From Clostridia bacterium (GTDB taxonomy: Bacteria; Bacillota; Clostridia; Oscillospirales; Acutalibacteraceae), in contig JAKSQM010000003.1 in assembly GCA_024404115.1 (NCBI GenBank), positions 164,171-228,170 on the forward strand: a stretch of 64,000 bases of DNA, in the 5' to 3' direction. Made by a program: the position numbers and the translations under genes. The notes beneath the pieces are model-generated. The model was not told the origin of the DNA, ran no database searches, and saw only the letters and a list, made by a program, of their open reading frames with translations. Positions 6,405 through 44,036 of the stretch are shown here, one piece after another (position 1 is the stretch's first letter; each line of letters begins with the position of its first letter).

Positions 6405-8408
6405 ATGGATAAATTTTTTAATCATATCGTCCACGGCGGGGATTACAACCCCGACCAGTGGATTAAAACAAAAGAAGTATGGGACGAAGATATGCGCCTT
6501 ATGAAGCTGGCACACATCAACTCCGCCACAATCAACATTTTTTCATGGGCAATGCTCGAACCGCAGGAGGGTGTCTATAACTTCCAGTGGCTTGACGAAA
6601 TTATGGATAAGCTCTACGAAAACGGCATTGATGTTATTCTTGCCACTCCCTCAGGTGCAAGACCCCCTTGGATGGCACAGAAATATCCCGAAGTTCTCCG
6701 TGTGGAAGAAAACGGAATCAGAAACGAATTTGGCGTAAGGCACAATCACTGCCTTACTTCGCCGATCTACCGCCAAAAGGTAAGAGAAATTAACCGAAAG
6801 CTTGCCGAACGCTACAAAAATCACCCTGCCCTTAAAATGTGGCATATTTCAAATGAATACAGCAGTGAATGTCATTGCGAGCTTTGTCAGGAGGCTTTCA
6901 GAAGCTGGGTCAAGGATTATTACAACGGTTCACTTGACGACCTTAACGAAAGATGGTGGAATGGCTTCTGGAGCCACACCCTCACCGATTGGAGTCAGAT
7001 CAGCTCACCAAAATCAAGAGGCGAAAACCATGTTTCTGCCCTCAAGCTTTGCTGGAAACGCTTTGTAACCGACAACCACATTTCTTTTTATGAAAACGAA
7101 ATCGCTCCTTTGAGAGAGATTACACCCACCATCCCCATAACCACCAACTTTATGAGAATGTATTCGGGCATAAATTATCAGAAATTCGCAAAGCATGTTG
7201 ACCTCATTGCGTGGGATAATTACCCGTTTTGGGATGAGGACGATACAGAAAAAATCGCAGTTGGCACAGCATTCTGCCACGATGTGAATCGCTCATTGCG
7301 TGGCGGTCAGCCATTCTTTATGATGGAAAGCACACCCTCAAATGCAAACTGGCACCCTGTGAATAAGCTCCACAAGCCAAACACACTGGGTCTTACCTCA
7401 ATTCAGGCAATTGCCCACGGTGCAGACAGTGTGCAGTATTTCCAGTGGAGAAAATCCCGTGGCGGACACGAAAAATATCACGGCGCAGTTGTTGACCATT
7501 GCGGACACGAAAACACAAGGGTTTTCAAAGAGGTTGCAGACCTTGGCGAAACTCTCGAAAAGCTCAGCAGCGTGGTTGGCGAAAGGTGCGAAAGCAAGGT
7601 TGCCGTTATCTGCGATTGGGAAAATATGTGGGCAACAGAGTATTTCTGCGGATACAACAACCTTCACAGGGATTATGTTGATGAGTGCATCAAATGGTAT
7701 AAGCCTTTCTGGAAGCGTGGCATCCCCGTTGATGTAATTTCAATGAATGATGATTTTAAGAAATATGACCTCGTTCTTGCTCCCTTTATGTATATGATAA
7801 ATAACGATACCGAGGGCAAAATCAAGAACTTCGTTGAAAACGGCGGTCAGTTTGTTATGACCTATTTAAGTGCCGTTGCAGATACTGACGACCGTTGCTT
7901 CTTTGGTGGACTTCCCTCCAACAGCCTTAAAGATGTTTTTGGCATCTGGTGCGAAGAAACAGACTCACTTCTTGAAAATTCCAATAACAAAGCCACATTT
8001 AACGGCAAAGAATATGATGTAAATGTTGTGTGCGATATTATCCACGCAAACACCGCCAAGGTGCTTGGTACATACGAAAGTGATTTCTATAAGGGTGAGC
8101 CGTCTGTAACTGTCAATAGCTGCGGCAAGGGCAAGGCATATTATGCCGCATTCAGAAATGATGGCGATTTCACAGACGATTTCTGCAAAATGCTCATTGA
8201 TGATATGGGCGTTTCAAGTGATGCAGATTTCGCTATCCCCAACGGCGTTGCAGCTAAAAAGAGAGGGGACTATACATTTATAATGAACTTCTCTGACGAA
8301 GAACGCACCGTTGACCTCGCAGGCGAATACGAAAATATCCTCACAGGCGAAAAATCAGCAGATAAAATCCACCTCCCCGTTCGTGGCTATGCGGTGGTTA
8401 AAAAATAA
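6405..8408 (+). CDS. Beta-galactosidase, glycoside hydrolase family 42
   Basis: A 667-residue protein of normal GH42 length: a TIM barrel (1-about 380), a trimerisation domain (about 390-590) and a short C-terminal beta domain. The N-terminal HGGDYNPDQW is typical. The acid/base Glu151 lies in WHISNEY, and the nucleophile Glu308 lies in FMMESTPSNANW. The cysteines around residues 155-161 (ECHCELC) match the metal-binding cluster of many GH42 enzymes. No signal peptide is seen. GH42 enzymes prefer beta-galactosides of plant or milk oligosaccharides, so this enzyme probably complements the GH2 enzyme in the same operon on different linkages. Start and operon spacing (3 bases) are clear. Confidence 0.94.
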   Translation: MDKFFNHIVHGGDYNPDQWIKTKEVWDEDMRLMKLAHINSATINIFSWAMLEPQEGVYNFQWLDEIMDKLYENGIDVILATPSGARPPWMAQKYPEVLRVEENGIRNEFGVRHNHCLTSPIYRQKVREINRKLAERYKNHPALKMWHISNEYSSECHCELCQEAFRSWVKDYYNGSLDDLNERWWNGFWSHTLTDWSQISSPKSRGENHVSALKLCWKRFVTDNHISFYENEIAPLREITPTIPITTNFMRMYSGINYQKFAKHVDLIAWDNYPFWDEDDTEKIAVGTAFCHDVNRSLRGGQPFFMMESTPSNANWHPVNKLHKPNTLGLTSIQAIAHGADSVQYFQWRKSRGGHEKYHGAVVDHCGHENTRVFKEVADLGETLEKLSSVVGERCESKVAVICDWENMWATEYFCGYNNLHRDYVDECIKWYKPFWKRGIPVDVISMNDDFKKYDLVLAPFMYMINNDTEGKIKNFVENGGQFVMTYLSAVADTDDRCFFGGLPSNSLKDVFGIWCEETDSLLENSNNKATFNGKEYDVNVVCDIIHANTAKVLGTYESDFYKGEPSVTVNSCGKGKAYYAAFRNDGDFTDDFCKMLIDDMGVSSDADFAIPNGVAAKKRGDYTFIMNFSDEERTVDLAGEYENILTGEKSADKIHLPVRGYAVVKK

Positions 8409-12699: not shown

Positions 12700-12957
12700 A
12701 CCATAGTAATGGTGTAATTGGACTCGTGCGCCCTGATGTGTCTACTGGAGCGCTGAGCCGTTTCACCATCCTGAAAATCAGGGGATTTTGGTAGATGCTC
12801 TGCCTCATGGCGGTAGTGCTGAACGGTGCGATTTACATACTTATCAATAAGCGCATTATTGATGTGTTAATTGCCTCGCCCGCAAGGTACCTTAGCCTGT
12901 TGAGCAGACTTCATCGTAATCACGCTGCGATGTAAAATTTTGCGTGAATCGTATGGT
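12700..12957 (+). ncRNA. ssrS: Probable 6S RNA
   Basis: No reading frame crosses this stretch, and it folds on paper into a long closed rod. 12700-12705 (ACCATA) pairs with 12952-12957, and 12721-12730 pairs with 12941-12950 with one mismatch. The 5' half resembles E. coli 6S RNA as I remember it, in matching order: CTGAGCCG, then TTTCA and ACC, a short hairpin (CCTGA-AAA-TCAGG), then TTGGT, GATGCTC. The 6S RNA binds RNA polymerase holoenzyme by mimicking an open promoter, and controls transcription in stationary phase. At about 258 bases it is longer than most; further inner hairpins include TCAATAA/TTATTGA. Another structured leader RNA is the main alternative. Confidence 0.62.
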
Positions 12958-12997
12958 ATTTTTAATACCAAATATTTATGGAGGTGTATCCAATAAT

Positions 12998-15900
12998 ATG
13001 AGACAGTTCAAAAAATTGTTAAGCGTCATTTTGGCGGTTATCATGGTATTCTCATCTGTTTCAGTTCTTGCAAGTGCATACGGTACTGCATGGAAAGATT
13101 CTGGTATCAAAACAAGCCAGTACAACACCATCGACGTACCTACTCTTACAACAGAGCAGTATGCAACAGCAGCACTTGATGAAGTTGACCGTATGCTCGA
13201 TGTTGAACAGATTATGTTAACAAAAGACGATATCTTCGTTGGTGACCTTGATGTTACATCAGTTAACGCAGCTCTCGACAGTGTTAATACCATCCTCAAT
13301 GGTTCTCTCTGGACTCAGTTTAAGAACATGCTTGGTGATTTACAGAACCTTAATATCAGTGCTCTTACAGTCCGCAGATCCAACGGCGGCAGTGATGTTG
13401 CAGTTATCAACTCACTCCTCAAATTCCTCTATGACAACAAAGGTCTTCTTTCAGGTTTCGTAAAGGGCGAAATTGACCTCGGTTCAATCGTTGCTCAGTT
13501 CGTTGACCTCAGCGACTTTGAAGTTCCTGGCCTTCTTAAAGGAATGCTTTATGAAGCAGCATACAACACAGATGCTCCTGATAAAGTAACACAGACAGTA
13601 GACACAATGGCACAGGATCTTATCGATGCGCTTGTAGTAACAGGCTATAACGGAGATGAGCCGCTTCTTCCCGAACTTGCTGGTCATACCAACATTTCAA
13701 ACGGCTCAATGCTTACATTCATTGATGACGCACTCAAGATTCTCTACAATGACCTTCTTGTTCCCCGTGCAAATCGTTTATGGATTGATGACATCAATGA
13801 GCTCCTCGCTGACTATTCTGATGAGATTTCAAAGTATCAGACATACTTCAATCTTACAGACGACGGCAAGGTAAACTTCCAGTTCCAGCCTTACAACTTC
13901 GATAACAGCAAGCTTGTTCTTGAGCAGCTCAATGACGTTCTTGCTTCAATCATCAACCTTGCTCTTTCTCCCAACCTTGACTTCAAGTGGGAAAAAGGCG
14001 ACAACTCAATGATCGTTAAGAACATCATCACTATCGGCAGAGAAGTTCTTTCTGCAACAGGTCGTGATTTCTTCGCATCATATGTTGAGATTTATGACAA
14101 AGCTAAGCTCGACACAATGACAGACATGCAGGTTGTAGCTTATGTTGCTCGTACAATCCTCAACTCTTCAATCGAAGGCGTTTGGATCCCCAACACAGCT
14201 GATAACCTTGTTAAAGTTGGTTCTTACCTTGTTAAGGATCTCATGGCAACTCAGCTTCCCGAGAGAGATTATTCAAGCGAAACAGCATACCCTGTAGATG
14301 ATATAAACACTGTTTATACTATCCTTTCAGATTTCGGTATCAAAGCTCTTAACGAGAACCCCGGCCTTAACCTTGAATATGGTATTGGCATTGACGCTCT
14401 TGCAAAAGCAGGCGCAAACTGGGTAATCAATAAGTACGGCGGACTTCTTTCAGGTATCAACCTCAGCACAGCTGATTCTGGTTGGGCTAACCTTGATAAG
14501 ATCATCTTCAGAATTATCGATAAGAGCTGGTTTGATGCATCAGCTTTCGGCGGTAATGTAACAACCGAAAAGCTCGTTAAAGATGTTCTCGTTAAAAACA
14601 TCCTTGACCTCAAATTTGAGAATCTTATTGATCTCCTTTGCAATAAGAGCTCTTCTTCAGAATTTGTTGCTTCTTCACCCAAGCAGCTTATTCTCAACAT
14701 CGTTACAAGAGTTCTCAACACTGTATTCCCTGGCCTTCTTAAGACTGGTATGACTACACTTGAAGAAATCATCACAGCTCAGAACCTTGGCAACACAGTT
14801 GACGCTCTCTTCTCAGATCTTTACAACAGCAGAGCAACACTCGTTCCCGCTGTTCTTCCTCTTGTTTGTGATATCCTTGACCTCACAACAGAAGAAACAT
14901 TCAAGAAGCCCACATTCTCAGTTGACAAGTTCTACTATCGTTCAGGTGCTATCAACGAGAGCTTCACAATCACAAACGGTTCTTATGGTATCAACACTGG
15001 TTACACAGATCCTGTAACTGGTCAGTTCCATCAGGACTCACTCTTCAAGATTAAGCTTGAAGATGTTACAATGGATGTTTACAGAACAGGTACTACAACT
15101 AAGATGACTGGCTTCACAGTTAAAATGCCTGAAAACCGTGTTATAAACGGCGGCGAAAAGGTTAAGGTTAACTTCAGCGGTTCAGTTAATGCTATTCTTG
15201 ATGTTATCTTCACAATCAAGTATAATGTAATCAAAGAGGACGGTCAGAATCTTACAAGTGCTCCTCTTACAGCTCGTATTTATACTTGCTTCTCAGGCAC
15301 AAACTCAGATGATGCTATTGAATGGACATCAACATCAGGTGCTGTTCAGGGTGCTGGTGGTCTTAAGAACCTCTTCATCACAAGCCCCAAGGGTCTTGAT
15401 GACCTTGAATTTAAGGTAAGAAATAAGACTGGTGCTGATAATACTCTTACAGCAACATTCACAAGTGCGACAAATGATGCAAGAAATATTTCTTTCGTTA
15501 TTGCAAATCCCGAGACAAAGACAGTTCTTAAAGACGGTACTGCAATTCTTAAGCCCCTTGCTCTTGACGGATACGAGGGAACAGAGGCTCAGGATTTAGA
15601 GGCATTCACCGCTAACGGATATAAACAGTATCAGTTAAAGACTGCTCCTACAATAGGTTCAGCTAAAGCAACAGCTATTACAAGCTACATCAACCTTTAT
15701 AAGGACTATGGTCTTATCGACCTCTTTACAAAGGAAGTTAATGCTCAGCGTCAGGCATCTGACTATGATGCAACAGCTTACAACGCATATCTTACAGCTA
15801 TGCAGCAGGCAGCATCTGTTGTTTTAACAAAGAAGACTGCTGCAACATACTGCGCAGCTACAGGTGTTGCAAAGAACTTCAAGGGATACGCAGAAGCTCT

Positions 15901-16927
15901 TGAAACAGCAGTTGAAAACCTTGAAGCAACAGCAGTTGGCGGCGTTACAGCTCTTAGAGATCGCCTTACAGAAATCGATCCTTCAAACAAGGGTAAGGAT
16001 TTCATGACAGATAGCGATTACTCATTCTTCAGCTCAGATAACTACCTTATGTACACATGGTCAAACTTCCGTGATAAGTACAAGGCAGCTGACAGATTTG
16101 CTTCTGAGTACGAAGAGGGCGGCAAATATTACGAACTCGGTGAGAAGCCCGAAGCTCTTGATGTTATCTACAAGACTTGGGAACTTAACAACTACTATGC
16201 AAGACTTCGTCCCGTTGACGATAGCAAGGTTAACCTCGCTCGTGCAATCAACGAAGCTAATGCAAGAAACTACGATAGCTCAAAATACACAGAAGAGAGC
16301 TTCGATAGATATGAAAACGCAATCGCTTTCGCTAACAGCGTAAACAGCGATGCAAGTGCAGTTCAGCACAAGATTAACCTCTCTTACATCGAGCTCATCG
16401 AAGCTCAGAAGAGACTTATCGCAGCAGAAGCAGAAGAGGAAGACGAGCTCGTTCTCGTTGCAGCAGAGGTTAGCCCTGTTAACCCCGACTGCGCTCCTCA
16501 GATCGTTACAAATTCTGCTGGTGAAAAGCTCCTCCTTGGTGTAGCTCCTGAAGATTACGAAATCGACATCGCTGAGTACTTTGCAGCAGAAGCTGGCGAT
16601 ATGAGCAAAGTTGAGTTTGTTTACGAAGAATTCGGAACAGGCAAAACAATTCAGGTTGTTGATAAGGCAACTGGCGATGTAATCGACGAATATGTAATTG
16701 CAATCAAAGGCGATATCAATGGCGATGGCGAAATTTCAGCATCAGATATGATGGCACTTTCACGTTCACTTTCCGGTCTTTCAGCATTCAGTGATGAAGG
16801 CGATTCAGCATTTGATTTTGCTGCAGATATTAACGGTGACGGTGAAGTTTCAGCATCAGATATGATGGCACTTTCACGTTCACTTTCTGGTTTGTCAGAT
16901 TATGACTTCGCAAAGTTAGACTTCTGA
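12998..16927 (+). CDS. Secreted dockerin protein with a large uncharacterised helical domain
   Basis: A 1309-residue secreted protein. The ATG at 12998 follows GGAGGTG and opens a signal peptide (MRQFKKLLSVILAVIMVFSS..., cleaved near ASA, residues 25-27). Residues about 30-620 are mostly helical and match no family I know. Beta-rich segments follow (about 650-860), then a helical FIVAR-like region (about 900-1180), and a type I dockerin at about 1238-1300. The dockerin has two Ca-binding repeats, each D-x-NGDGE followed by the same helix SASDMMALSRSLSGL. Dockerins attach proteins to cohesins on scaffoldins or the cell surface. It directly follows the 6S-like RNA and heads a run of related surface genes. 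Confidence 0.85.
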   Translation: MRQFKKLLSVILAVIMVFSSVSVLASAYGTAWKDSGIKTSQYNTIDVPTLTTEQYATAALDEVDRMLDVEQIMLTKDDIFVGDLDVTSVNAALDSVNTILNGSLWTQFKNMLGDLQNLNISALTVRRSNGGSDVAVINSLLKFLYDNKGLLSGFVKGEIDLGSIVAQFVDLSDFEVPGLLKGMLYEAAYNTDAPDKVTQTVDTMAQDLIDALVVTGYNGDEPLLPELAGHTNISNGSMLTFIDDALKILYNDLLVPRANRLWIDDINELLADYSDEISKYQTYFNLTDDGKVNFQFQPYNFDNSKLVLEQLNDVLASIINLALSPNLDFKWEKGDNSMIVKNIITIGREVLSATGRDFFASYVEIYDKAKLDTMTDMQVVAYVARTILNSSIEGVWIPNTADNLVKVGSYLVKDLMATQLPERDYSSETAYPVDDINTVYTILSDFGIKALNENPGLNLEYGIGIDALAKAGANWVINKYGGLLSGINLSTADSGWANLDKIIFRIIDKSWFDASAFGGNVTTEKLVKDVLVKNILDLKFENLIDLLCNKSSSSEFVASSPKQLILNIVTRVLNTVFPGLLKTGMTTLEEIITAQNLGNTVDALFSDLYNSRATLVPAVLPLVCDILDLTTEETFKKPTFSVDKFYYRSGAINESFTITNGSYGINTGYTDPVTGQFHQDSLFKIKLEDVTMDVYRTGTTTKMTGFTVKMPENRVINGGEKVKVNFSGSVNAILDVIFTIKYNVIKEDGQNLTSAPLTARIYTCFSGTNSDDAIEWTSTSGAVQGAGGLKNLFITSPKGLDDLEFKVRNKTGADNTLTATFTSATNDARNISFVIANPETKTVLKDGTAILKPLALDGYEGTEAQDLEAFTANGYKQYQLKTAPTIGSAKATAITSYINLYKDYGLIDLFTKEVNAQRQASDYDATAYNAYLTAMQQAASVVLTKKTAATYCAATGVAKNFKGYAEALETAVENLEATAVGGVTALRDRLTEIDPSNKGKDFMTDSDYSFFSSDNYLMYTWSNFRDKYKAADRFASEYEEGGKYYELGEKPEALDVIYKTWELNNYYARLRPVDDSKVNLARAINEANARNYDSSKYTEESFDRYENAIAFANSVNSDASAVQHKINLSYIELIEAQKRLIAAEAEEEDELVLVAAEVSPVNPDCAPQIVTNSAGEKLLLGVAPEDYEIDIAEYFAAEAGDMSKVEFVYEEFGTGKTIQVVDKATGDVIDEYVIAIKGDINGDGEISASDMMALSRSLSGLSAFSDEGDSAFDFAADINGDGEVSASDMMALSRSLSGLSDYDFAKLDF

Positions 16928-18157: not shown

Positions 18158-21100
18158 TTGAAAACAGCTAAAAAAATTCTGAGTGTTGTTCTTGCTGTTA
18201 TTCTTGTTCTTGGCACAGTTGTAGTTGCAGCTAATGCTGCTGTTCCTGCTTCCGCAAAGATCGTATCAAGCTTCAAAATCGAAGTTTTAGATCCAAGCGA
18301 AGGTTGCGAGAATATTGCAACTGAGGTTAAGAACGGTGGTCGTGAATTCGGCGCAAGTGGTTCTGCAACAACTACACTTCAGAAGGCAGACATCGCAGCA
18401 TATAAAGAGCTCGAAGAGCACAATTATGCTGACACAACAAAGCCTGTTGAGGTAAAAGCAGGTCAGGTTGTTTGGTTAACTGTTAACATCAAACACAATG
18501 ACTTTTACCTTGGCGGTATCGAAACAACAGTGTTCTATTCAGTAGGTAAAGATGCTGATAACACTACCCTGTTCTCTGGTACATTAAGTGGTGCAGCTCA
18601 GACCGTAAACTGTGATAGTGAATGGAATGAGTGGGGCTTCACCAATACTGTAACATATTGGTCAAAGATTATTGCTACAAAGAGAACTTCATTCACAAAG
18701 TTACTTGCTGATCCTTCAGCATACCATTGCGTATCAGTTACTTCACTTCACTCTGCATATGATGAAGTTGAAGGTATACTTGTTCCTGATGCAGATATCG
18801 ATTTAGTTACATTCCCTCTTTTCGTATCTCCTGATGCAAAAGTAGGCGACACAGTAACATTGGATTATTATCTTGGTAAAAAGCCTGACTATGCTCAGTT
18901 TGCAGATGGCGATGTTACAGGTGATATCGAATCTATGCCTCTTTCACAGATGTCAACAGTACCAGTTACTCTTGTAGTTGTTGACGACGTAGCAGAACTC
19001 GACTACACAGAACTCGATGCTCAGATCGCAGCATTCGATGCTCTCAAAGAGGCTGATTACACAGCTGATACATGGGCAGAAGCTAAAGAGTACTACGATG
19101 CAGCAGTAGCAGCTAAGACAGATGCTGAAACACAGGACGAAGTTGACGAAGCAGCAGGTAATCTTGCAGATGCTATCGAAAATCTTGAAAAAGCTCCCGT
19201 ACTTTCATTCGACGCTCTTGAGAAAGCACTTGAAGATGCAGCTAAGGTTGATAAGGATACATTAACAACATCTTCAGCAGCAGATCTTGATGCAGCAGTT
19301 GCAGCAGCAGAAGCAGCTAAGTCAGCTACTACTCAGGAAGAAATCAACAAGGCAACAGCAGATCTTTGCGATGTTCTTGATAACCTTTCAACAAAGGCAG
19401 ACCTCACAGCACTTAACAATGCTCTTGCAGAGGCAGCTGAAGTAGATAAGGATAAGTACACAGCTGATACAGTTAAGGCTCTTGAGGATGCAGTAGCAGC
19501 TGGTCAGGCAATCGTTGCTAATGCTGATGAAACATCAGACACAGCAGCAGTTGCAAAGGCAACTAACGATATTAACACAGCTATCAGTGGTCTTAAACTT
19601 AAGGGCGCTGATTACACAGCAGTTGATACAGCAGAATCAACAATCGCTGGTCTTAAAGAAGCAGACTACACAGCAGCTTCATGGGCAAAGCTCAAGGAAG
19701 CTGAGAAGGCAGTAGTTCGTGGTTATGACATCGAGAAGCAGGCAGCAGTTGACGCTATGGCAACAGCTCTTAACAATGCTATCGATGGTCTTAAGAAAGT
19801 AGCTGATACATCAGCTCTTGAAGAAGCTATCGCAGCAGCAGCAGATGCTGATAAGACAGCTTATGCAGCAGACGTTTGGGAAGCAATCCAGAACGACGTT
19901 GCACTTGCTAACACATATGTTGGCGCTGGTCTTGCAGCAGACGATGTTCAGAATGACATTGATGCTCTTACAGCAAAGATCAATAGCGAACTCGCTAATA
20001 CAATGGGCGCAGCAGACTACTCAAAGGTAGATGCAGCTCTTGAAAAGATCCCCGCAGACCTTTCAGGTTACACAGACGCTTCTGTAGCAGCTCTTAACAA
20101 TGCTGTTAACGCAGTTGCTCGTGGACTTATGGAAGACAAACAGGCAAGCGTTGATAAGATGGCAGCTGACATTGAAGCAGCTATCAACAACCTTGAAGTT
20201 AAGAAGGCTGACTACACAGCTCTTAACGCAGCTATCGCAAATGCTGACGCAAAAGTTGGCGACGAAGCTCTCTACACAGCTGAAACATATTCAGCATATA
20301 AGACAGCTTATGATGCAGCTAAGGCTGTTCCCGCTGGTCAGGATTACACAGCACAGGATTCTATCGATGCAGCAGCAAAGGCTCTTAACGATGCAGTTGA
20401 CGGTCTTGCATATGCAGGTGCTGATTGGACAGCTCTTGACGCAGCAGTAGAGAAAGTTAACGGTGTTGACAGATCTCTCTACACTGACGATTCACTTGCT
20501 AAGATGGATGCAGCAGCAGCAACAGCACTTGAGATGTATAACGCAAAGAGCGATTATGACATCAATTCTCAGTCAGTTATCGATGCAGCAGCAGAAAAAG
20601 CTGACGGTTCACTTAAACTCCTTGTTCTCAAGGATGCTGACTATGCAAAGGTAGATGCAGCTAAGGAAGAAGCAGCAGCTATCACAAGATCACATTACAC
20701 AAGCGATTCTCTTGCAGCTCTTGATGCAGCTCTTGCAGCAGTTCCCAAGAATGCAAAGATCGACAAGCAGGCTGATGTTGACGCAGCAGCAGATGCTATC
20801 TCAGAAGCAGTTAAGGCTCTTGTTCTTAAAGATGCTGACTATTCATCAGTTGACAGCCAGATCACACGTGCTGGCAAGCTCAGCGCTAAGGATTATACTA
20901 AGGATTCATGGGCAGCTCTTGAAGCAGCTATCGACGCAGTAGTTCGTGGCTACAAAGCTGACAAGCAGGCTGATGTTGATAACATGGCTATCGCAATTGA
21001 AAAGGCTATCAACGCTCTTGTTAAGGTATCAGGCGCTGACTATTCAGAGATCCTTGCTCTTAACGAGCAGTATCAGCAGCTCAACCCCAACCTTTACACA

Positions 21101-22261
21101 GATGAGACATATGATGCATACGAAGCAGCTATCAACGCTGTTGACTATTCACTTTCAAGCAACGACCAGGATAAGGTTGACGCTATGGCTAAGGCTATTA
21201 AGGATGCATATGCAGCTCTTGAACTCAAGGATGCTGACTACACAGCAGTTAACACAGCTAAAGACAACTTCGCAGCAATGGATACAGCTAACTACACAGA
21301 TGATTCTGTAAAGGCAGTTGAAGATGCAATTGCAGCAGTTGTTGAAGGCAAGAAGATCGACGAGCAGACCGCAGTTGACGATATGGCTAAGGCTATCAAC
21401 GATGCTATTGACGCTCTTGAACTCAAGGATGCTGATTACACAGCAGTTAACGAAGCTATCGCTAAGTTCGACGCTCTTGATAAGTCAATCTACACTGGCG
21501 CTTCAGTAAGAAACGTTGAGAAGGCTATCGCAGCAGTTGTTGAAGGCAAGAAGATTGACGAGCAGGCTGACGTTGACGCAATGGCACAGGCTATTAACGA
21601 TGCTATTGCAGCTCTTAAGGAGCCCGCAGGCGTTGTTACTAACGTAGTAGTTGCTGAATCACCCACAAATACTAAGGATCTTACAATCACAGTTGAAAAC
21701 AGAGCTTTCAAAGTTCAGCTTATCGACGAAAACGGTAACACTGTAACTAAGAGCAGAGTTGATCATCCTGAGTACATCACAAGCTATGATAAGGACGGCA
21801 ATGTAGTTGACTACATGTCAAGAGATATCGCTTATGAGGAATGGAACTTCACTGCAACACTTAAGCCCGGTAAATACACTGTAATTTCAAGAGATTCTCA
21901 GGATGGTTGGGAAACAAAGGATCTCGGTTATGAAGTAGTAATCGAGAACTCAGTTAAGTATATTGACGTTGTTTCTCTTACTCCTTCAGCTGGCACAGCT
22001 AAGGTTTCAACAGAGCTTCCTCTTACAGTTGTAACTGGTAAGGATATTACAAAGATCCAGATCCTTGTTGACGACGCAACAGAAGGTGCAAAGACATTCT
22101 ATGCATCATCAAGCGGCACAATCGAGGGCGACCAGTGCACATACAACATCTATGTTAAACTTTACAGCAAGGGTGATCATACTCTTAAAGTTAAGTATAG
22201 AACAGCAGAGGGTTGGGAAGTTTGCGATGACGTTACAGCTACAGTAACAGCAGTTAAATAA
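18158..22261 (+). CDS. Giant secreted FIVAR-repeat surface protein
   Basis: A 1367-residue protein that starts at a TTG behind AGGAGG, with a signal peptide nearly identical to that of the previous gene (MKTAKKILSVVLAVILVLG..., ending ANA). Residues about 30-280 form a beta domain of the same general type as in the flanking dockerin proteins. Residues about 282-1158 hold 13 FIVAR repeats of 65-72 residues, each starting D-Y/W-T/S-x-(V/L) and containing YT-x-D/E-S/T and a D-x-(M/A)-A helix. Two small beta domains close the protein (1160-1367). It has no dockerin, LPXTG or S-layer motif, so attachment is unclear. FIVAR modules act as helical stalks or sugar binders. Confidence 0.85.
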   Translation: MKTAKKILSVVLAVILVLGTVVVAANAAVPASAKIVSSFKIEVLDPSEGCENIATEVKNGGREFGASGSATTTLQKADIAAYKELEEHNYADTTKPVEVKAGQVVWLTVNIKHNDFYLGGIETTVFYSVGKDADNTTLFSGTLSGAAQTVNCDSEWNEWGFTNTVTYWSKIIATKRTSFTKLLADPSAYHCVSVTSLHSAYDEVEGILVPDADIDLVTFPLFVSPDAKVGDTVTLDYYLGKKPDYAQFADGDVTGDIESMPLSQMSTVPVTLVVVDDVAELDYTELDAQIAAFDALKEADYTADTWAEAKEYYDAAVAAKTDAETQDEVDEAAGNLADAIENLEKAPVLSFDALEKALEDAAKVDKDTLTTSSAADLDAAVAAAEAAKSATTQEEINKATADLCDVLDNLSTKADLTALNNALAEAAEVDKDKYTADTVKALEDAVAAGQAIVANADETSDTAAVAKATNDINTAISGLKLKGADYTAVDTAESTIAGLKEADYTAASWAKLKEAEKAVVRGYDIEKQAAVDAMATALNNAIDGLKKVADTSALEEAIAAAADADKTAYAADVWEAIQNDVALANTYVGAGLAADDVQNDIDALTAKINSELANTMGAADYSKVDAALEKIPADLSGYTDASVAALNNAVNAVARGLMEDKQASVDKMAADIEAAINNLEVKKADYTALNAAIANADAKVGDEALYTAETYSAYKTAYDAAKAVPAGQDYTAQDSIDAAAKALNDAVDGLAYAGADWTALDAAVEKVNGVDRSLYTDDSLAKMDAAAATALEMYNAKSDYDINSQSVIDAAAEKADGSLKLLVLKDADYAKVDAAKEEAAAITRSHYTSDSLAALDAALAAVPKNAKIDKQADVDAAADAISEAVKALVLKDADYSSVDSQITRAGKLSAKDYTKDSWAALEAAIDAVVRGYKADKQADVDNMAIAIEKAINALVKVSGADYSEILALNEQYQQLNPNLYTDETYDAYEAAINAVDYSLSSNDQDKVDAMAKAIKDAYAALELKDADYTAVNTAKDNFAAMDTANYTDDSVKAVEDAIAAVVEGKKIDEQTAVDDMAKAINDAIDALELKDADYTAVNEAIAKFDALDKSIYTGASVRNVEKAIAAVVEGKKIDEQADVDAMAQAINDAIAALKEPAGVVTNVVVAESPTNTKDLTITVENRAFKVQLIDENGNTVTKSRVDHPEYITSYDKDGNVVDYMSRDIAYEEWNFTATLKPGKYTVISRDSQDGWETKDLGYEVVIENSVKYIDVVSLTPSAGTAKVSTELPLTVVTGKDITKIQILVDDATEGAKTFYASSSGTIEGDQCTYNIYVKLYSKGDHTLKVKYRTAEGWEVCDDVTATVTAVK

Positions 22262-36225: not shown

Positions 36226-36939
36226 ATGGAACGAAAACTTCCCGAACATATCGGCATAATTATGGACGGCAACGGCCGCTGGGCAAAACAGCGTGGTCTT
36301 AACCGTTGGGACGGACACAAGGAGGGCGCAAATGTATTCAGAAAAATTTGCTCCTATGCTTGCGACATCGGTATCAAAAGCATAACCTTTTATGCTTTTT
36401 CAACAGAGAACTGGCGCCGTCCTCCCGAAGAGGTTGCCGCCATTATGGATCTTTTCAGAGATTACCTTGGTGAAGCTGAGGACAGAGAAAACGAAAACAT
36501 CAAAAAGGGCATGCAGATGCACTTTATCGGCAGGCGTGATGATATGCCCGATGACATTGTAAGCCTTATGGAAACTGCCGAAGAAAATTCAAAGGATGCC
36601 AACAGAATCAAAGTAAACATTGCCATAAACTATGGCGGCAGACTTGAGATTGTGGAGGCTGTCAGAAAGCTGGCTCAAAAGGTAAAGGACGGCGAAATGA
36701 ATCCCGAAGACATCACCGAGGATTCTATTTCAGATAATGTTTACACAGCAGGTCAGTCTGACCCCGATTTAATCATCCGCCCCAGTGGCGAATTAAGACT
36801 TTCCAACTTCCTGTTGTGGCAGTCAGCATATTCAGAGTTATGGTTCTCTGATATTCTCTGGCCCGATTTCACAACAGACGATTTAGACAAAGCAATAGAC
36901 GATTACAACAACCGCAACAGACGATTTGGCGGAGTATGA
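36226..36939 (+). CDS. uppS: Isoprenyl transferase (undecaprenyl diphosphate synthase)
   Basis: A 237-residue cis-prenyltransferase. The catalytic block IIMDGNGRWAKQRG (about 11-24), SITFYAFSTENWRRP, and the C-terminal DPDLIIRPSGELRLSNFLLWQSAYSE (read in parts) are all present. It makes the C55 lipid carrier for peptidoglycan and for the exopolysaccharides encoded elsewhere in the window. AAGGAG fixes the ATG at 36226. Its stop lies 4 bases before dxr, leaving no room for cdsA, which usually sits between them. Confidence 0.95.
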   Translation: MERKLPEHIGIIMDGNGRWAKQRGLNRWDGHKEGANVFRKICSYACDIGIKSITFYAFSTENWRRPPEEVAAIMDLFRDYLGEAEDRENENIKKGMQMHFIGRRDDMPDDIVSLMETAEENSKDANRIKVNIAINYGGRLEIVEAVRKLAQKVKDGEMNPEDITEDSISDNVYTAGQSDPDLIIRPSGELRLSNFLLWQSAYSELWFSDILWPDFTTDDLDKAIDDYNNRNRRFGGV

Positions 36940-36943
36940 TTTT

Positions 36944-38086
36944 ATGGAAAAGATAATTACTATTTTAGGCTCAACAGGCTCTATCGGCAAGCAGGCACTT
37001 GAGGTTGTGGATATGCAGGGCTATAAGGTTCTTGCGCTTACAGCCAACGGCAGCGTTGATATTCTTGAAGAGCAGATAAGAAAATATAAACCCAAGTATG
37101 CCGCACTTGCAGATGAGAAAAAAGCGGCAGAGCTTGCCGTGAAAGTGGCAGATACAGAAACAAAAATTCTCTCTGGCAGGGAGGGTGTGTGCTTCTGCGC
37201 CGCCTTAAAGGCAGATTATGTTCTCAACAGCATCGTTGGTATGGCAGGTCTTGAACCGACCCTCAATGCAATCGAAAGCGGCAACGAAATTGCCCTTGCA
37301 AACAAAGAAACTCTTGTGGCAGGCGGTTCACTTGTAACAGGCAAAGCAAAAGAAAAAGGTGTCAGCCTTTTACCTGTTGATAGCGAACATTCTGCAATTT
37401 TCCAGTCCTTACAGGGATGCAGAGATAAAAAAGAGGTTAAGCGTCTTATTCTCACAGCTTCTGGCGGTCCTTTCTTTGGCAGAAGCAGAGAATCCCTTTC
37501 AGATGTTACAGTTGAGCAGGCTCTCAACCATCCTAACTGGAGCATGGGCGCAAAAATCACTATTGATTCAGCCTCAATGATGAATAAAGGACTTGAGCTT
37601 ATTGAAGCGGTTTGGCTTTTCTCAATGAAGCCTGCGGATGTTGACATTGTTGTTCACCGCCAGAGCGTTGTTCACTCACTTGTTGAGTATTGTGATAATT
37701 CTGTTATCGCTCAGCTTGGTGTGCCCGATATGCGCATTCCCATTCAGTATGCTCTCACATACCCCAACCGTATTCCGTCCCCTGTTAAACAGCTTTCTTT
37801 AACGGATTACGGCACACTTACTTTTGAAAAGCCTGATTATAATGCGTTTGGCTGCATAAATATATGTAGGGACGCTATTGAAAAAGGCGGACTTTATCCT
37901 GCGGCGGCAAATTCCGCAAACGAGGCGGCAAATCTTGCTTTCCGTCAGGGCAAAATTAAATTTCTTGATATTGAGCGCCTTGTGCGTGGTGTGTGCGAAA
38001 GTGCGCCCTCAAAAACAAACTATACTTTTGCCGATGTGTGCGATATGGATAAATGGGCAAGAGATTATGTTGCGTCAAAAATCTGA
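36944..38086 (+). CDS. dxr: 1-deoxy-D-xylulose 5-phosphate reductoisomerase
   Basis: A 380-residue enzyme of the MEP isoprenoid pathway. It rearranges and reduces DXP to MEP with NADPH and a metal. The NADPH loop GSTGSIGKQAL starts near residue 8; ANKETLVAGG, PVDSEHSAIFQ (metal ligands), ASGGPFFGRS, HPNWSMGAKITIDSASMMNKGLE (in parts) and RQSVVHSLVEY are all typical. ATG 36944 is chosen; an upstream frame begins inside uppS. It is adjacent to rseP and ispG, the common Clostridia order, and supplies precursors for the UppS product. Confidence 0.96.
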   Translation: MEKIITILGSTGSIGKQALEVVDMQGYKVLALTANGSVDILEEQIRKYKPKYAALADEKKAAELAVKVADTETKILSGREGVCFCAALKADYVLNSIVGMAGLEPTLNAIESGNEIALANKETLVAGGSLVTGKAKEKGVSLLPVDSEHSAIFQSLQGCRDKKEVKRLILTASGGPFFGRSRESLSDVTVEQALNHPNWSMGAKITIDSASMMNKGLELIEAVWLFSMKPADVDIVVHRQSVVHSLVEYCDNSVIAQLGVPDMRIPIQYALTYPNRIPSPVKQLSLTDYGTLTFEKPDYNAFGCINICRDAIEKGGLYPAAANSANEAANLAFRQGKIKFLDIERLVRGVCESAPSKTNYTFADVCDMDKWARDYVASKI

Positions 38087-38115
38087 TTTTGCATTATTTT
38101 AAGAGGTGATTATTT

Positions 38116-39210
38116 TTGTCAGTTATTACATGGCTATTAAGTAAATGGACAGTGCTTGTTGCTATTCTGTTTTTTGGTTTTATAATTATGGTTCACGAGG
38201 CTGGGCATTTCTCTTTTGCAAAGCTTTTCGGTGTAAAAGTCAACGAGTTTTCTCTCGGTATGGGTCCCAAGCTTCTCAGCCGAAAGAAAGGTGAAACAAC
38301 CTATTCATGGCGACTTCTGCCCATTGGCGGATATGTAAGCATGGAAGGCGAGGATGAGGCAAGCAGCGACGAGCGTGCATTCAATAAAAAGCCGTGCTGG
38401 CAAAAAATAATTATCGTTGCCGCAGGTGCAATCGTTAATATAATTATCGGTCTTATAATCATCTGCGCAATTCTTGCTGTCAACCACGAGGATCTTTCAG
38501 GCACAACATTTATAAATTATTTCCTGCCGGAGCAGTCTGCAACACAGCAGGCAGAGAATGTAGAAAAGCAGGAGCCTCTCACTGAGTTTGACGGACTTAA
38601 AACAGGCGACAAAATCAAAAAGATTGACGGCAAAAATGTTTTTTATTACGAAGATATTTATTATCTTTCCTCCCGTGATTTTGACGAGGACGGAAAGTTC
38701 ACCGCCACAGTTGAAAGAGGCGGCAAAAAAGTAACAGTTGAAAATATCAGCACAGATGTAATCAACCGCATGATAATCGTTGGTGTCAAAACAACTCCGC
38801 TGACTATTATTAAAGATACATTCAAAGAATCCGTCTGCATTTGCCGAATGGTTTATCTGAGCCTTTTTGATATGATAACAGGCAAATATTCTGTTAAGGA
38901 TATTTCAGGTCCCATTGGCGTTGTGGATGTTGTATCGCAGACGGCGGAGGCTTCCAGCGAAGCTCATGATTACACAGGATTATTCAAAATCCTTGCACTT
39001 ATCACAATCAACATCGGCATAATGAATCTTCTGCCGCTTCCCGCTCTTGACGGCGGCAGGCTCTTCTTCCTTTTCATTGAGCTTATCAGAAGAAAGCCGT
39101 TGAATCCAAAATATGAGGCAATGGTTCATGGCATCGGTCTTGCCCTGCTCCTTGCACTTATGGCAGTTATTTCGTTTAAAGATATATGGGTATTGGTAAC
39201 AGGTGGATAA
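38116..39210 (+). CDS. rseP: Site-2 zinc metalloprotease (RseP/RasP family)
   Basis: A 364-residue integral membrane protease. HEAGH (His27-His31) in the first helix is the zinc site. A PDZ domain (about 130-235) follows a membrane segment at about 95-117, and the second active-site motif LPLPALDGGRLFF lies near 312. It cleaves anti-sigma factors and leftover signal peptides inside the membrane. The start is TTG at 38116 behind AAGAGGTGA. It overlaps no neighbour, and ispG begins one base after its stop codon. Confidence 0.93.
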   Translation: MSVITWLLSKWTVLVAILFFGFIIMVHEAGHFSFAKLFGVKVNEFSLGMGPKLLSRKKGETTYSWRLLPIGGYVSMEGEDEASSDERAFNKKPCWQKIIIVAAGAIVNIIIGLIIICAILAVNHEDLSGTTFINYFLPEQSATQQAENVEKQEPLTEFDGLKTGDKIKKIDGKNVFYYEDIYYLSSRDFDEDGKFTATVERGGKKVTVENISTDVINRMIIVGVKTTPLTIIKDTFKESVCICRMVYLSLFDMITGKYSVKDISGPIGVVDVVSQTAEASSEAHDYTGLFKILALITINIGIMNLLPLPALDGGRLFFLFIELIRRKPLNPKYEAMVHGIGLALLLALMAVISFKDIWVLVTGG

Positions 39211-39211
39211 T

Positions 39212-40261
39212 ATGGAAAGAAAAATTACAAAACAGGTTAAAGTCGGCAATATTTTAATCGGCGGCGGTGCGCCCGTCAGCATTCAGTCAATGCTCAATAA
39301 GCCTGCGGAAGATATTGAAGCAAGCGTTAAGCAGGCACTTGAGCTTGAAAAGGCAGGATGTCAGATAATCAGAAGTGCTGTTCCCAATATGGAAGCTGTG
39401 AAGCTTATTGAAGCACTTAAAAAGAATCTCACTGTGCCAGTTGTGGCAGATATTCATTTTGATTATCGCCTTGCTCTTGCCTGCGCAGATGCAGGTGTAG
39501 ATAAAATCAGAATCAACCCCGGCAACATCGGCTCTGACGATAAAGTTAAAGCTGTTGCAGATAAATGTAAAGAAAAAAATATCCCCATCAGAATCGGTGT
39601 AAATTCAGGTTCTGTTGAAAAAGAAATTCTTGCAAAATACGGCTCACCCACACCCGAAGCACTTGTGGAGAGCGCACTTTATCACGCATCACTTCTTGAA
39701 AAATTTGATTTTAACGATATTGTTATTTCAATTAAATCATCTGATGTTGAGAATATGGTGAAAGCATATACCCTTGCAAGTGAAAGGTGCGATTATCCCC
39801 TTCACCTTGGTGTAACAGAGGCTGGCACTGCAAGAATGGGTCTTATTAAATCAAGCGTTGGTATCGGCTCACTGCTCCTTAACGGAATCGGCGATACAGT
39901 GAGAGTTTCTCTTACAGATGACCCTGTTAAAGAGGTTGAAGCTGCCAACGATATTCTTAAAGCAATCGGTGTTAAAAAAGACGGAGTAAGAATCGTTTCA
40001 TGCCCCACCTGCGGCAGAACTAAAATCGACCTTATTTCACTTGCAAACCGTGTTGAGTCAGCTCTTAAAGACTGCAAAAAGTCAATTAAGGTTGCAGTTA
40101 TGGGCTGTGTTGTTAATGGCCCTGGCGAAGCAAGAGAAGCTGACATCGGCATAGCTGGCGGTGATGGCTGCGCAATGATTTTCAAAAAAGGTGAAATTTT
40201 GCGCAAGGTTCCCGAAAGTGAAGTTGTGGATGAACTCCTTAAAGAAATAGAGAAGTTATAA
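39212..40261 (+). CDS. ispG: 4-hydroxy-3-methylbut-2-en-1-yl diphosphate synthase
   Basis: A 349-residue iron-sulphur enzyme of the MEP pathway that converts MEcPP to HMBPP. SIQSMLNKP opens the TIM-barrel part; DIHFDYRLAL and RINPGNIG are typical. The [4Fe-4S] ligands lie in CPTCGRTKIDL (about 264-267) and GCVVNGPGEA (about 297). ATG 39212 lies one base behind the rseP stop, indicating coupled translation. It sits where proS lies in Bacillus. Confidence 0.96.
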   Translation: MERKITKQVKVGNILIGGGAPVSIQSMLNKPAEDIEASVKQALELEKAGCQIIRSAVPNMEAVKLIEALKKNLTVPVVADIHFDYRLALACADAGVDKIRINPGNIGSDDKVKAVADKCKEKNIPIRIGVNSGSVEKEILAKYGSPTPEALVESALYHASLLEKFDFNDIVISIKSSDVENMVKAYTLASERCDYPLHLGVTEAGTARMGLIKSSVGIGSLLLNGIGDTVRVSLTDDPVKEVEAANDILKAIGVKKDGVRIVSCPTCGRTKIDLISLANRVESALKDCKKSIKVAVMGCVVNGPGEAREADIGIAGGDGCAMIFKKGEILRKVPESEVVDELLKEIEKL

Positions 40262-40274: not shown

Positions 40275-43200
40275 ATGCAGGAAAGAAGTTTTTTATCGCT
40301 TTTCGGTGAATGTGTCAATGCCGAGCAGGCTGAATATTTTAAAAGTGCCGTTATCACCGAAATCAGCGCAGATGCTGAAACACGCACAATCGAAATGTCT
40401 GTGCGGTTTGAGGATTATGTGCCTGACGAGCTTGTTGAAAAAGCAAAATCCCAGATAACGCAGTTTATGGTACTTAACGGCTTTGCCTTTGATTATAAAT
40501 ATGCAGGCGAAATGTTCAGCCATAAATGGATTCCCTACCTTGTCAATGAACTGAAAAAGAAATTCAGCGCAGGTTGGCAGTTTCTTGATGGTGCGTTGTA
40601 TTCTGTTGAGGGCAATAACCTTACAATCACCCTTAAACGAAACGGCAAAGAGATTTTAAAACAGCTTGGCGTTGAAGATTACATAAAGAAAATTATAAGA
40701 GACAGGTTTGGTGTGCCTGCTGTGATAAATATTGTTTCATCTTCTCAAAGCTCAGAGGATGAAGCAAAGGCACTGCTTGAATTGCAGAAGCAGGAGGCGG
40801 CAAAAATCAAAGTAGCTGCCCCCGCTCAGAAAAAAGAAAAGGGAGCAGAGGAGGTCAAGAAAAATCCTCTTGAGCAGACCTATGAGGATTTGCCCATCTC
40901 CCTTTCAAATGCCAAAACAATCTACGGCACATTTGTTAATAAAAAGCCTGTCCCCATTGAAGAAATCGGCCCCGATTCAGGCGATGTAATTGTGTGGGGC
41001 GATGTCTTTAAGCTTGAAGTTAAAGACACTAAAGATAAAAAGAAAAAAATCATCAATTTTAATATTACAGACTATACCTCATCATACGCAGTTAAGGCTT
41101 TCGGTCAGAATCAGGTATGCAAAGAGATGACAGAGAAGCTGAAAGACGGCTGCACTGTTATTATAAGAGGACCCGTTATTTACGATACCTTTGCAAAAAC
41201 ATATCTTATTGATTGCAAGTCGGCAACTCTTATTGATAAAATCGGCAAAAAAGACAATGCCCCAGAAAAGCGTGTTGAGCTTCATCTTCACACAAATATG
41301 TCTGCAATGGACGGTGTTTCAAGTGCAAAAGCTCTTGTTTCACAGGCGGCAAAATGGGGTCATAAGGCAATTGCCATAACAGACCACGGCAATGTTCAGG
41401 CATTCCCCGAAGCTATGAACACAGCCGAAAAAGCTGGCATCAAAATCCTTTACGGCATTGAGGCATATTTTGTTGACGATATTACCGAAGCAGGTGCAGA
41501 CCCCCGTCAGCTAAAATATTACCATCAGATAATTCTTGTTAAAAATAATGTAGGTCTTAAAAATCTCTATAAGCTCATCACTGCGTCAAATCTTGAATTT
41601 TTCAGAAAGAAACCGAGAATCCCCAAGAGCCGACTTATTGAGCATAGAGAGGGTCTTATTGTCGGCAGTGCCTGTGAAGCAGGCGAGCTTTACCGTGCAA
41701 TTATCGCTAACGAAAGCGAAGAACGCATAATGGAAATTGCTGAATTTTATGACTACCTTGAAATTCAGCCAAACGGCAATAATATGTTCATGGTCAGAAG
41801 TAACCGTGATGAACACGCACAGATAAGATCAACTGTTGACCTTGAAAATATCAACAGAAAAATTATTGCAATTGCAGATAGACTGGGCAAGCCTGTTGTT
41901 GCAACGGGCGACGTTCATTTCCTTGCAAAAGGCGATTCAATTTTCAGAGAAATTCTTATGGCTGGTCAGGGATTTAAAGATGCTTCCGAGCAGGCACCGC
42001 TTTATCTTCGAACAACTGACGAAATGCTGGCAGAATTCTCATATTTAGGCGAAGAAACAGCCAAAGAGGTTGTTATCACCAACCCCAATAAAATCGCCGA
42101 TATGTGCGAAACAATCAGACCGATTCCATACGGCACTTTCCCGCCAAAAATTGAGGGTGCAGACGAAGAGCTTACAGAAATCTGCTGGCGAAGAATTAAG
42201 GATGAATACGGCGACCCTCTGCCAGAGCTTATCAGCACACGACTTGAAAAAGAGCTTAAATCAATCATTTCAAACGGATTCGGCGTTTTGTATATGATTG
42301 CGCAGAAGCTTGTTTATAATTCAGAGGAACACGGCTACTATGTTGGTTCACGAGGAAGCGTTGGTTCTTCATTCGTTGCCCACGCATCTGGTATTTCAGA
42401 GGTTAATCCGCTTCCGCCCCATTATGTTTGCCGCAAGTGCAAGCACAGTGAATTTTTCACAGACGGCAGCGTTGGCTCAGGCTTTGACCTGCCGCCCAAA
42501 AACTGCCCCACCTGCGGAATACCAATGCACCGAGACGGACACGATATTCCCTTTGAAACATTCCTTGGATTCAAAGGCGATAAACAGCCCGATATCGACC
42601 TTAACTTCAGCGGTGAGTATCAGTTTCAGGCTCACCGATACACAGAAACGCTTTTCGGTCTTTCTCACGTTTTCAAAGCTGGTACAATCGGCACAGTTGC
42701 AGATAAAACCGCCTTTGGCTTTGTTAAAAAGTGGGAGGAGGAGCGAGGCAGAGCACTTAATAAAGCGGAGGAAGACAGACTTTCAGCAGGTTGTGTAGGC
42801 ATCAAGAGAACCACCAGCCAGCACCCTGGCGGAATGGTTGTTGTGCCAGGTGATATGGAGGCAGAGGACTTCACCCCCATTCAGCACCCTGCGGACGATG
42901 TTGAAAAAGGACTTCGTACAACTCACTTCGATTTCCACGCTTTGCACGATACTATCCTTAAACTTGATAACCTCGGTCATGATGTTCCCACATTCTATAA
43001 GCACCTTGAGGATTCAACAGGTGTTTCTGTTATGGATGCCGATGTCTGCGACCCGAAGGTGTATAAGCTTCTCACAACTCCAGAGCCGTTGGGCGTAACA
43101 GCAGAGGATATTGACTGCGAAACAGGTACTCTTTCTCTCCCCGAGCTTGGTACACCGTTTGTTCGTCAGATGCTTCTGGACGCTAAACCGCAGAACTTCT

Positions 43201-44036
43201 CTGATATGCTTCAGATTTCTGGACTTTCACACGGTACTGACGTTTGGCTTGGCAATGCGCAGGATCTTATTAAAAAAGGCACCTGCACCATTTCAGAGGT
43301 TATCGGAACACGAGACAGTATCATGGTTTATCTTATGCACAAGGGTCTTGAGCCTGATATGGCATTTAAAATAATGGAAATTGTCCGTAAAGGTAATGCC
43401 ACAAAGCTTCTTAATGAAACCCACTTCAAGGCTATGAGAGATCATGATGTTCCCGAATGGTACATTGATTCGTGTATGAAAATCAAATACATGTTCCCCA
43501 AGGCTCATGCCGCCGCATACGTTATTGCCGCAATGCGCCTTGCGTGGTATAAAATATATTACCCCAGAGAGTATTATGCAACCTATATGACAGTTCGTGG
43601 TGATGACCTTGACACTGTTGCAATTATGAACGGCAGAGATGCTGTCCGTCAGCTTATGAAAGATATTGCCATTAAGCAAAAAGAAAAGTCGGCAACCGCT
43701 AAGGATGACGGTATGTATGTTGCAATGCAGGTTATCAACGAAATGATGGCAAGAGGAATTGAATTTTTGCCCGTTGATATTTATAAATCTGACGCAACTG
43801 TCTATAGAATTGAGGACGGCAAAATCAGACTTCCGTTCCTTTCAATGTCTGGCACAGGCGAAAGTGCCGCAAAAGCACTTGCCGCCGCAAGAGATGACGG
43901 CGGAGGACAGTTTATGTCTATTGAAGAGCTTCAGCAACGCTCTGGAGTCAGTAAGTCAGTTATTGAAACTCTCAGAAGTGCAGGTGCTCTTGAGGGACTT
44001 CCCGAAAGTGCGCAGATGAGCTTCTTCACATTATGA
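40275..44036 (+). CDS. polC: DNA polymerase III PolC without the exonuclease domain
   Basis: A 1253-residue PolC-type replicative polymerase, about 180 shorter than B. subtilis PolC. Order: N-terminal domains (1-about 215), OB fold (about 220-325), PHP domain beginning VELHLHTNMSAMDG (from 334), then palm and fingers. PolC carries a DEDD 3'-5' exonuclease inserted in the PHP domain; here the PHP text passes from YGIEAYFVDD (about 393) to YYHQIILVKN (about 415) and no DxETTG motif exists anywhere. The zinc cysteines (CRKCK, CPTCG) and catalytic PDIDLNFSG (Asp773, Asp775) are intact. It follows ispG by 13 bases. Proofreading, if any, must come from another protein. Confidence 0.95.
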   Translation: MQERSFLSLFGECVNAEQAEYFKSAVITEISADAETRTIEMSVRFEDYVPDELVEKAKSQITQFMVLNGFAFDYKYAGEMFSHKWIPYLVNELKKKFSAGWQFLDGALYSVEGNNLTITLKRNGKEILKQLGVEDYIKKIIRDRFGVPAVINIVSSSQSSEDEAKALLELQKQEAAKIKVAAPAQKKEKGAEEVKKNPLEQTYEDLPISLSNAKTIYGTFVNKKPVPIEEIGPDSGDVIVWGDVFKLEVKDTKDKKKKIINFNITDYTSSYAVKAFGQNQVCKEMTEKLKDGCTVIIRGPVIYDTFAKTYLIDCKSATLIDKIGKKDNAPEKRVELHLHTNMSAMDGVSSAKALVSQAAKWGHKAIAITDHGNVQAFPEAMNTAEKAGIKILYGIEAYFVDDITEAGADPRQLKYYHQIILVKNNVGLKNLYKLITASNLEFFRKKPRIPKSRLIEHREGLIVGSACEAGELYRAIIANESEERIMEIAEFYDYLEIQPNGNNMFMVRSNRDEHAQIRSTVDLENINRKIIAIADRLGKPVVATGDVHFLAKGDSIFREILMAGQGFKDASEQAPLYLRTTDEMLAEFSYLGEETAKEVVITNPNKIADMCETIRPIPYGTFPPKIEGADEELTEICWRRIKDEYGDPLPELISTRLEKELKSIISNGFGVLYMIAQKLVYNSEEHGYYVGSRGSVGSSFVAHASGISEVNPLPPHYVCRKCKHSEFFTDGSVGSGFDLPPKNCPTCGIPMHRDGHDIPFETFLGFKGDKQPDIDLNFSGEYQFQAHRYTETLFGLSHVFKAGTIGTVADKTAFGFVKKWEEERGRALNKAEEDRLSAGCVGIKRTTSQHPGGMVVVPGDMEAEDFTPIQHPADDVEKGLRTTHFDFHALHDTILKLDNLGHDVPTFYKHLEDSTGVSVMDADVCDPKVYKLLTTPEPLGVTAEDIDCETGTLSLPELGTPFVRQMLLDAKPQNFSDMLQISGLSHGTDVWLGNAQDLIKKGTCTISEVIGTRDSIMVYLMHKGLEPDMAFKIMEIVRKGNATKLLNETHFKAMRDHDVPEWYIDSCMKIKYMFPKAHAAAYVIAAMRLAWYKIYYPREYYATYMTVRGDDLDTVAIMNGRDAVRQLMKDIAIKQKEKSATAKDDGMYVAMQVINEMMARGIEFLPVDIYKSDATVYRIEDGKIRLPFLSMSGTGESAAKALAAARDDGGGQFMSIEELQQRSGVSKSVIETLRSAGALEGLPESAQMSFFTL

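Follow-up and report, generated by a model that had tools for sequence, protein, structure and literature searches.

The window analysed here, a stretch of 64,000 nucleotides from a Clostridia bacterium of the family Acutalibacteraceae (contig JAKSQM010000003.1), carries a polC gene whose product has no DEDDh proofreading exonuclease inserted in its PHP domain (Table 1). With 1504.6 bits against NCBIfam NF001688 (cut-off 873) and 1349.5 against TIGR01405 (cut-off 1043.45) the protein is a PolC by both curated models. Pfam matches were obtained for PHP, DNA_pol3_alpha, finger, HHH_6 and PolC N-terminus II; PolC N-terminus I and the OB fold stayed under the cut-off, yet in the expected place, so that the PolC order of N-terminal domains, OB before PHP, palm, fingers and HhH is retained. 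An earlier interpretation made from the letters alone (the sequence-only reading) had proposed an intact frame with N-terminal, OB, PHP, zinc and catalytic parts, and this is borne out by the open reading frame, Pfam, NCBIfam and phmmer.

The DEDDh insert within PHP, a hallmark of PolC, is missing. PHP appears as one unbroken Pfam match (residues 335-498), and no RNase_T match was obtained for the protein at a threshold of E = 1, a setting at which the HMMER filters still discard most matches above ~0.1. The best phmmer match in the PDB was 3f2b, a Geobacillus PolC construct with the exonuclease removed by design, to which residues 228-1252 align without large gaps. Only 20 residues separate the PHP ligands E396 and H417; this scar loop together with H417 ends in DPRQLKYYH, resembling the C-terminal linker of those relatives that contain the exonuclease (exo-containing, as opposed to exo-less). 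The loss of the DEDD exonuclease from PHP, as claimed by the sequence-only reading, is confirmed by the unbroken PHP, the lack of an RNase_T match and the alignment to 3f2b, although the distance between YGIEAYFVDD and YYHQIILVKN is 12 residues and not "about 20". A DEDDh domain elsewhere in the protein, considered there as the alternative, can be ruled out as no RNase_T match was found.

The source genome (2.43 Mb, 44 contigs, 84% complete) was searched for a second PolC or DnaE, as had been proposed, and the assembly was found to hold one PolC and one DnaE. From the intact PHP site and the class of the latter (1153 amino acids, aa) we infer a DnaE1 rather than a DnaE3. Lacking the insert and accompanied by this predicted DnaE1, the window protein falls among the exo-less clostridial PolCs. 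Since such PolCs of Clostridia and Negativicutes are in print, making up 6% of PolCs and 16% of the PolC + DnaE1 set (PMC3919608, Timinskas et al.; of this and all other PMC papers cited, a part was available), the window PolC is a further case of a published form and shares with it the absent Exo insertion, the DnaE1 alongside and the conserved PHP site. Repeated losses within one family, their scars, a degenerate intermediate and a same-genome search for DnaQ are added here to the accessible content of that paper.

Table 1. Features of the polC locus, given in positions of the window.
Feature	Position	Strand	Remarks
Upstream neighbour block, presumably dxr, rseP, ispG	36926..40261	+	served as tree markers
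PolC without DEDDh exonuclease	40275..44036	+	1253 aa, ATG start, intact open frame
PolC N-terminal domains NI + NII	40320..40859	+	aa 16-195; Pfam, NI below cut-off
OB-fold domain	41019..41180	+	aa 249-302; Pfam below cut-off; aligned to 3f2b
PHP first part, ligands H337, H339, D346, H371, E396	41277..41462	+	Pfam; ligand list from the accessible part of PMC3666897
Scar loop at the DEDDh exonuclease site of other PolCs	41463..41522	+	aa 397-416
PHP second part, ligands H417, C467, D546, H548	41523..42074 (end approximate)	+	
D546 codon	41910..41912	+	PHP ligand 8, corresponding to D226 of M. tuberculosis DnaE1
Palm, zinc and fingers region with catalytic PDIDLNF stretch	42168..43412	+	aa 632-1046
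HhH motif	43755..44003	+	aa 1161-1243; Pfam
C-terminal sliding-clamp-binding motif QMSFF	44013..44027	+	aa 1247-1251; likeness to QxxLF of PMC3919608 (part available)

The domain is equally missing in the close relatives, which are mostly metagenome assemblies. Of the 18 genomes of the genus, counting that of the window, 17 yielded a PolC, with 15 frames of 1252-1295 aa and two shorter ones (952 and 591 aa) that were probably cut by contig ends. All 15 genus PolCs that were translated lack the insert in an open frame, and the best 80 named GTDB loci comprise 65 without and 15 with it; judging by their titles these 80 records come from metagenomes, with the guts of ruminants, deer and horses as frequent sources. 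Because the domain is absent from 15 of 15 translated genus members, and likewise from 65 named loci, an assembly deletion or frameshift, which the draft state of the incomplete source could suggest and which the sequence-only reading had held against itself, is ruled out with near certainty. The clade check proposed by that reading returned a loss common to the 15 genus members translated, and one that maps to many clades.

For the family, an alignment of 118 PolCs was made from the window protein and 117 fetched sequences. The latter were hand-picked (short frames and a spread of long ones from ~160 listed rows, plus the genus list), and the ratio of 55 exo-less to 62 exo-containing PolCs is therefore not a prevalence. 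Counted with both ends, the stretch from E396 to H417 measures 21-41 residues in the 55, 209-219 in the 62, where it includes the DxETTG motif, and 183 in one sequence. Scar loops of the exo-less lineages (19-39 residues) differ from lineage to lineage. Loop ends similar to KxL..YH occur in 34 of 55 exo-less and 55 of 62 exo-containing PolCs (a loose pattern for which no chance level was computed), which fits deletions sparing the C-terminal linker. The three exonuclease motif patterns are matched by all exo-containing PolCs except G123 (61 of 62), which fails only the third with SHRAYDD in place of HHRAxDD or similar. In the single PolC of intermediate length, the INTERMEDIATE case from G162, the 183-residue insert has lost the first motif DxETTG and the HHRA of the third. 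Judged by these motifs it looks like an exonuclease that was dead before its deletion, and it was excluded from the counts of presence and absence.

In a tree of the PolC core, calculated with the E-to-H stretch left out, 11-12 changes of the trait are needed, 8 of which are forced by well supported branches. The tree of three neighbouring genes requires 12-13 changes with 9-10 forced. These are FastTree or quick IQ-TREE trees; the neighbour-gene tree leaves out 14 of 124 rows for which fewer than two of the genes were available, and a second one was reduced to a single row for each genus and state (73 rows). According to these phylogenies the exonuclease trait has changed at least 8-10 times within one family; without any regain, 14 or 15 losses would be required. 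In genus g15 the domain is present in one genome and absent from another. Regain by transfer in some exo-containing lineages is neither shown nor excluded by the sequences: the exonuclease tree (62 rows) does not group the 14 upper-clade rows, and holding them together is not rejected in the approximately unbiased (AU) test (p-AU 0.28 for 14 rows, 0.35 for 10). Outside the family, exo-less PolC was confirmed in six of six f2 and three of four f17 sequences chosen by frame length, which is only a guide, as short frames of f7, f11, f12, f14 and f15 turned out to be exo-containing.

The nine metal ligands of the PHP site, taken from the list in the accessible part of PMC3666897, are all present in the window PolC. 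They read HHDHEHCDH in 118 of 118 family PolCs (55 exo-less, 62 exo-containing and the degenerate G162), in all 11 other exo-less main PolCs checked (f1, f2, f17) and in all 80 named GTDB loci, 65 of them exo-less and overlapping with the family set. This retention is not automatic, since all four of the additional short PolC-like paralogs have broken ligands. The paralogs themselves (L213 in G162, L214 in G177, L216 in G089, L365 in G241; 794-862 aa) have no N-terminal, OB and exonuclease parts, show 36-53% identity to the window PolC in the case of G162, G177 and G089, and are perhaps mobile or lesion-bypass polymerases.

Ligand 8 is Asp in the PolCs checked here and Asn in 3f2b and 9qpc. 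For Geobacillus kaustophilus PolC, an exonuclease activity of PHP was not detected according to the available part of PMC3666897, and the exchange D226N abolishes the PHP exonuclease of M. tuberculosis DnaE1 (PMC5636811). Going by this Asp, DEDDh disappeared from PolCs with a seemingly complete catalytic PHP site. Compared with the PolCs of B. subtilis and Geobacillus, domain order, catalytic and zinc regions and the clamp motif are the same in the window protein; those PolCs, unlike ours, carry DEDDh, and the Geobacillus enzyme combines Asn at ligand 8 with the undetected exonuclease. M. tuberculosis DnaE1 shares the nine ligands with the catalytic Asp and has a loop instead of the DEDDh insert between Glu and His. 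At this place DnaE1 loops comprise 29 residues in M. tuberculosis and 18 in T. aquaticus (PMC5636811), matching the 20 of the window protein in position and size. The difference is that the PHP activity of this DnaE is proven, whereas that of the window PolC is predicted. The DnaE PHP site is intact in the window genome (nine ligands) and in eight of eight exo-less genomes sampled, and the clamp motif is kept in all 55 exo-less PolCs.

Some neighbouring lineages have no PolC at all. Among 200 family genomes 29 gave no PolC hit; 12 were examined, and the locus itself showed six of them to be PolC-less. The other six were not counted: G105, whose PolC is truncated by a contig end, G124, where ispG lies at the end of a contig, G054 and G027, for which ispG was not found, G046 with a fragmented ispG, and G030, which has no polC behind ispG but is only 82% complete. 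In the six accepted genomes (95-99% complete) the block which we take to be dxr, rseP and ispG lies intact inside a contig with a non-polC gene next to it, and a search with PF07733 returned DnaE-type genes only. They represent six genera and form one clade (support 94 and 99 in the two neighbour-gene trees), nested in a part of the family that is rich in exo-less PolCs (27 exo-less, 6 PolC-less and 5 exo-containing rows). The DnaE PHP site of these f1 genomes is intact in four; in one, ligand 4 is Tyr instead of His, and in one the site is unreadable. One of them, G096, encodes a divergent extra DnaE-like polymerase (L212:1913-5206, 1098 aa, ~20% identity to PolC).

PolC was apparently given up throughout f9, another family of this order. 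A genome-wide search gave no PolC hit at 1e-50 or better in ten of ten genomes (G222, G242, G255, G267, G279, G291, G302, G312, G321, G330); each has a DnaE, with an intact PHP site in all ten, and six of ten have no RNase_T match. A 227-aa frame of G291 may be part of a PolC, and G242 carries another DnaE-like frame of 1053 aa in addition to the first. A PolC hit was likewise absent in G280 of f11. DnaE1-only Clostridia as such have been published (PMC3919608).

These lineages bear on the main rival explanation, according to which DnaE1 performs the accurate bulk synthesis and an exo-less PolC has been demoted to a minor role, so that within PolC itself nothing would be needed in place of the lost exonuclease. 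The question was raised by Timinskas et al. (PMC3919608), and the disappearance of polC in a clade of six genera within an exo-less-rich part of the family, as well as its apparent absence in f9 with DnaE in each genome, agree with it. The exo-less PolCs, however, have retained both the catalytic stretch and the clamp motif, and their palm evolves slowly; losses of the exonuclease occurred also in parts of the tree remote from the PolC-less clade. We regard demotion as the full explanation as unlikely, albeit a serious contender; it is compatible with proofreading by PHP, and both can be true.

The sequence-only reading had expected a separate exonuclease or a higher mutation rate as the consequence of the loss. 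The loss is real, but this choice is incomplete as it omits proofreading by PHP. Two free RNase_T proteins are indeed present in the window genome, but with only 30 and 37 bits against the DnaQ epsilon cut-off of 71.5; both are under the cut-off for all NCBIfam families listed, and one (287 aa) is KapD-like. In 39 exo-less genomes a lone RNase_T frame of 283-322 aa was found in 20, and an RNase_T match was absent in seven (G132, G147, G181, G194, G063, G058, G109; 92-99% complete). The exo-containing set, made up of 38 exo-containing genomes and G162, has free frames of 280-344 aa in 29 of its 39 genomes, and frames of this KapD-like kind occur whether or not PolC carries the exonuclease. Strong free matches (at least 100 bits) were observed in five of 39 exo-less and three of 39 exo-containing-set genomes. 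The share is higher in the PolC-less genomes (5 of 16: G060, G096, G092, G312, G321), the first three being f1 genomes (L333, L334 and L336, respectively). One strong hit in each of the two sets of 39 is a Cas2e-DnaQ fusion (L165:1018-1980 in the exo-less G064; L217:2784-3701 in the degenerate G162), a known arrangement of CRISPR type I-E, and such fusions inflate the counts of free DnaQ.

Proofreading in trans by a separate DEDDh exonuclease would fit the strong non-Cas2 proteins of the exo-less G016, G017, G107 and G191, the first two from the window genus (two of five other members searched), and the strong matches in PolC-less genomes, for which a role of free DnaQ is not excluded. The other three genus members G006, G008 and G015 (95-97% complete) have only an RNase_T frame of ~290-307 aa and no strong small DnaQ-like protein. 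A free DnaQ as general substitute in the exo-less set is ruled out by the seven genomes without RNase_T and the similar frames in the exo-containing set, and for the window PolC we consider an exonuclease in trans improbable.

Alternatively, the exonuclease might not have been replaced at all, with weaker proofreading, reliance on mismatch repair and a raised mutation rate, perhaps tied to small genomes. The window genome encodes MutL, as do 38 of the 39 exo-less genomes; altogether 76 of 78 genomes exceed the cut-off, the exceptions being G023 (exo-less) and G018 (exo-containing) with a lower score or no match, so that a loss of mismatch repair alongside the exonuclease was not seen. Exo-less genomes are also smaller, with medians of 1.9 vs 2.25 Mb (p 0.005; sizes rounded, assemblies incomplete). 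Eight phylogenetically independent pairs give this difference no support, though, and the PHP ligands are strictly conserved. This makes a missing replacement quite unlikely, more so than a demoted PolC.

With a probability of roughly 60% we favour the reading that the window protein is a working replicative PolC from which DEDDh was deleted in the ancestor of the genus, as has happened repeatedly in the family. The PHP domains of PolC and DnaE1 would both act as zinc-dependent 3'-5' exonucleases and carry the proofreading as in M. tuberculosis DnaE1. Proofreading by PHP would make the DEDDh domain redundant and free to be lost, and the loss may belong to a process in which PolC gradually cedes its role to DnaE1 and finally disappears, as in the nested clade. 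The intact frame, the catalytic and clamp motifs, the nine-ligand PHP with Asp at position 8, the broken sites of the paralogs, the intact DnaE PHP, MutL, the lack of an epsilon-like free exonuclease in the assembly, the seven exo-less genomes without an RNase_T match and the six PolC-less loci support this reading. In vitro, fast polymerisation is described for an S. aureus PolC with the exonuclease deleted (PMC3656037); in this construct (Sau-PolC deltaN deltaExo), as in 3f2b, the exonuclease was removed at the same site, but together with the N-terminal domain that the natural window PolC keeps. The probabilities of the readings overlap, since they are not mutually exclusive.

Several observations weigh against proofreading by PHP. 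The only PolC PHP tested in the literature covered, that of Geobacillus, is inactive, and PHP has also a structural role (both PMC3666897, part available). Exo-containing relatives keep the PHP site equally well, and its conservation is thus no proof of a takeover. A change in the PHP/palm rate was not detected (1.23 in exo-less vs 1.14, 95% range of the difference -0.09 to 0.27). The strong DnaQ-like proteins of G016 and G017 and of the PolC-less genomes point in the same direction, and a free DnaQ could be missing from the 84% complete assembly of the window genome.

Extended to the order of gut Clostridia, proofreading may have switched from DEDDh to the PHP domain of PolC at least a dozen times. 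The loss of the exonuclease would then start a retirement of PolC that leads to DnaE1-only descendants, some of them without an RNase_T-family DEDDh exonuclease. What allowed the switch would be the catalytic PHP Asp, retained in these PolCs but replaced by Asn in the two with a known structure; we put this extended reading forward tentatively, at somewhat less than even odds.

Apart from polC, the window contains GH2 and GH42 beta-galactosidase genes side by side (3252-8408, +), a gene for a 1327-aa protein with a C-terminal dockerin and otherwise unrecognised large domains (12944-16927, +) and one for a 1367-aa protein with a weak FIVAR match alone (18158-22261, +).

The repeated change of the exonuclease within one family, the differing scars, the dead exonuclease and the contrast at ligand 8 are new; in the part of the open literature searched, no prior account of repeated in-family loss, of a dead intermediate or of this contrast was found. 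Why clostridial replicases hold more than one active-looking proofreader is an open question in the literature covered. The many losses beside relatives that keep the exonuclease provide a natural experiment on PolC PHP proofreading, and the family makes testable whether Asp or Asn at ligand 8 is the decider and whether PolC or DnaE1 is the bulk replicase in Clostridia. A part of the gut Clostridia has a PolC unlike the model one, or none, which may bear on the sparing of commensals by PolC-directed antibiotics.

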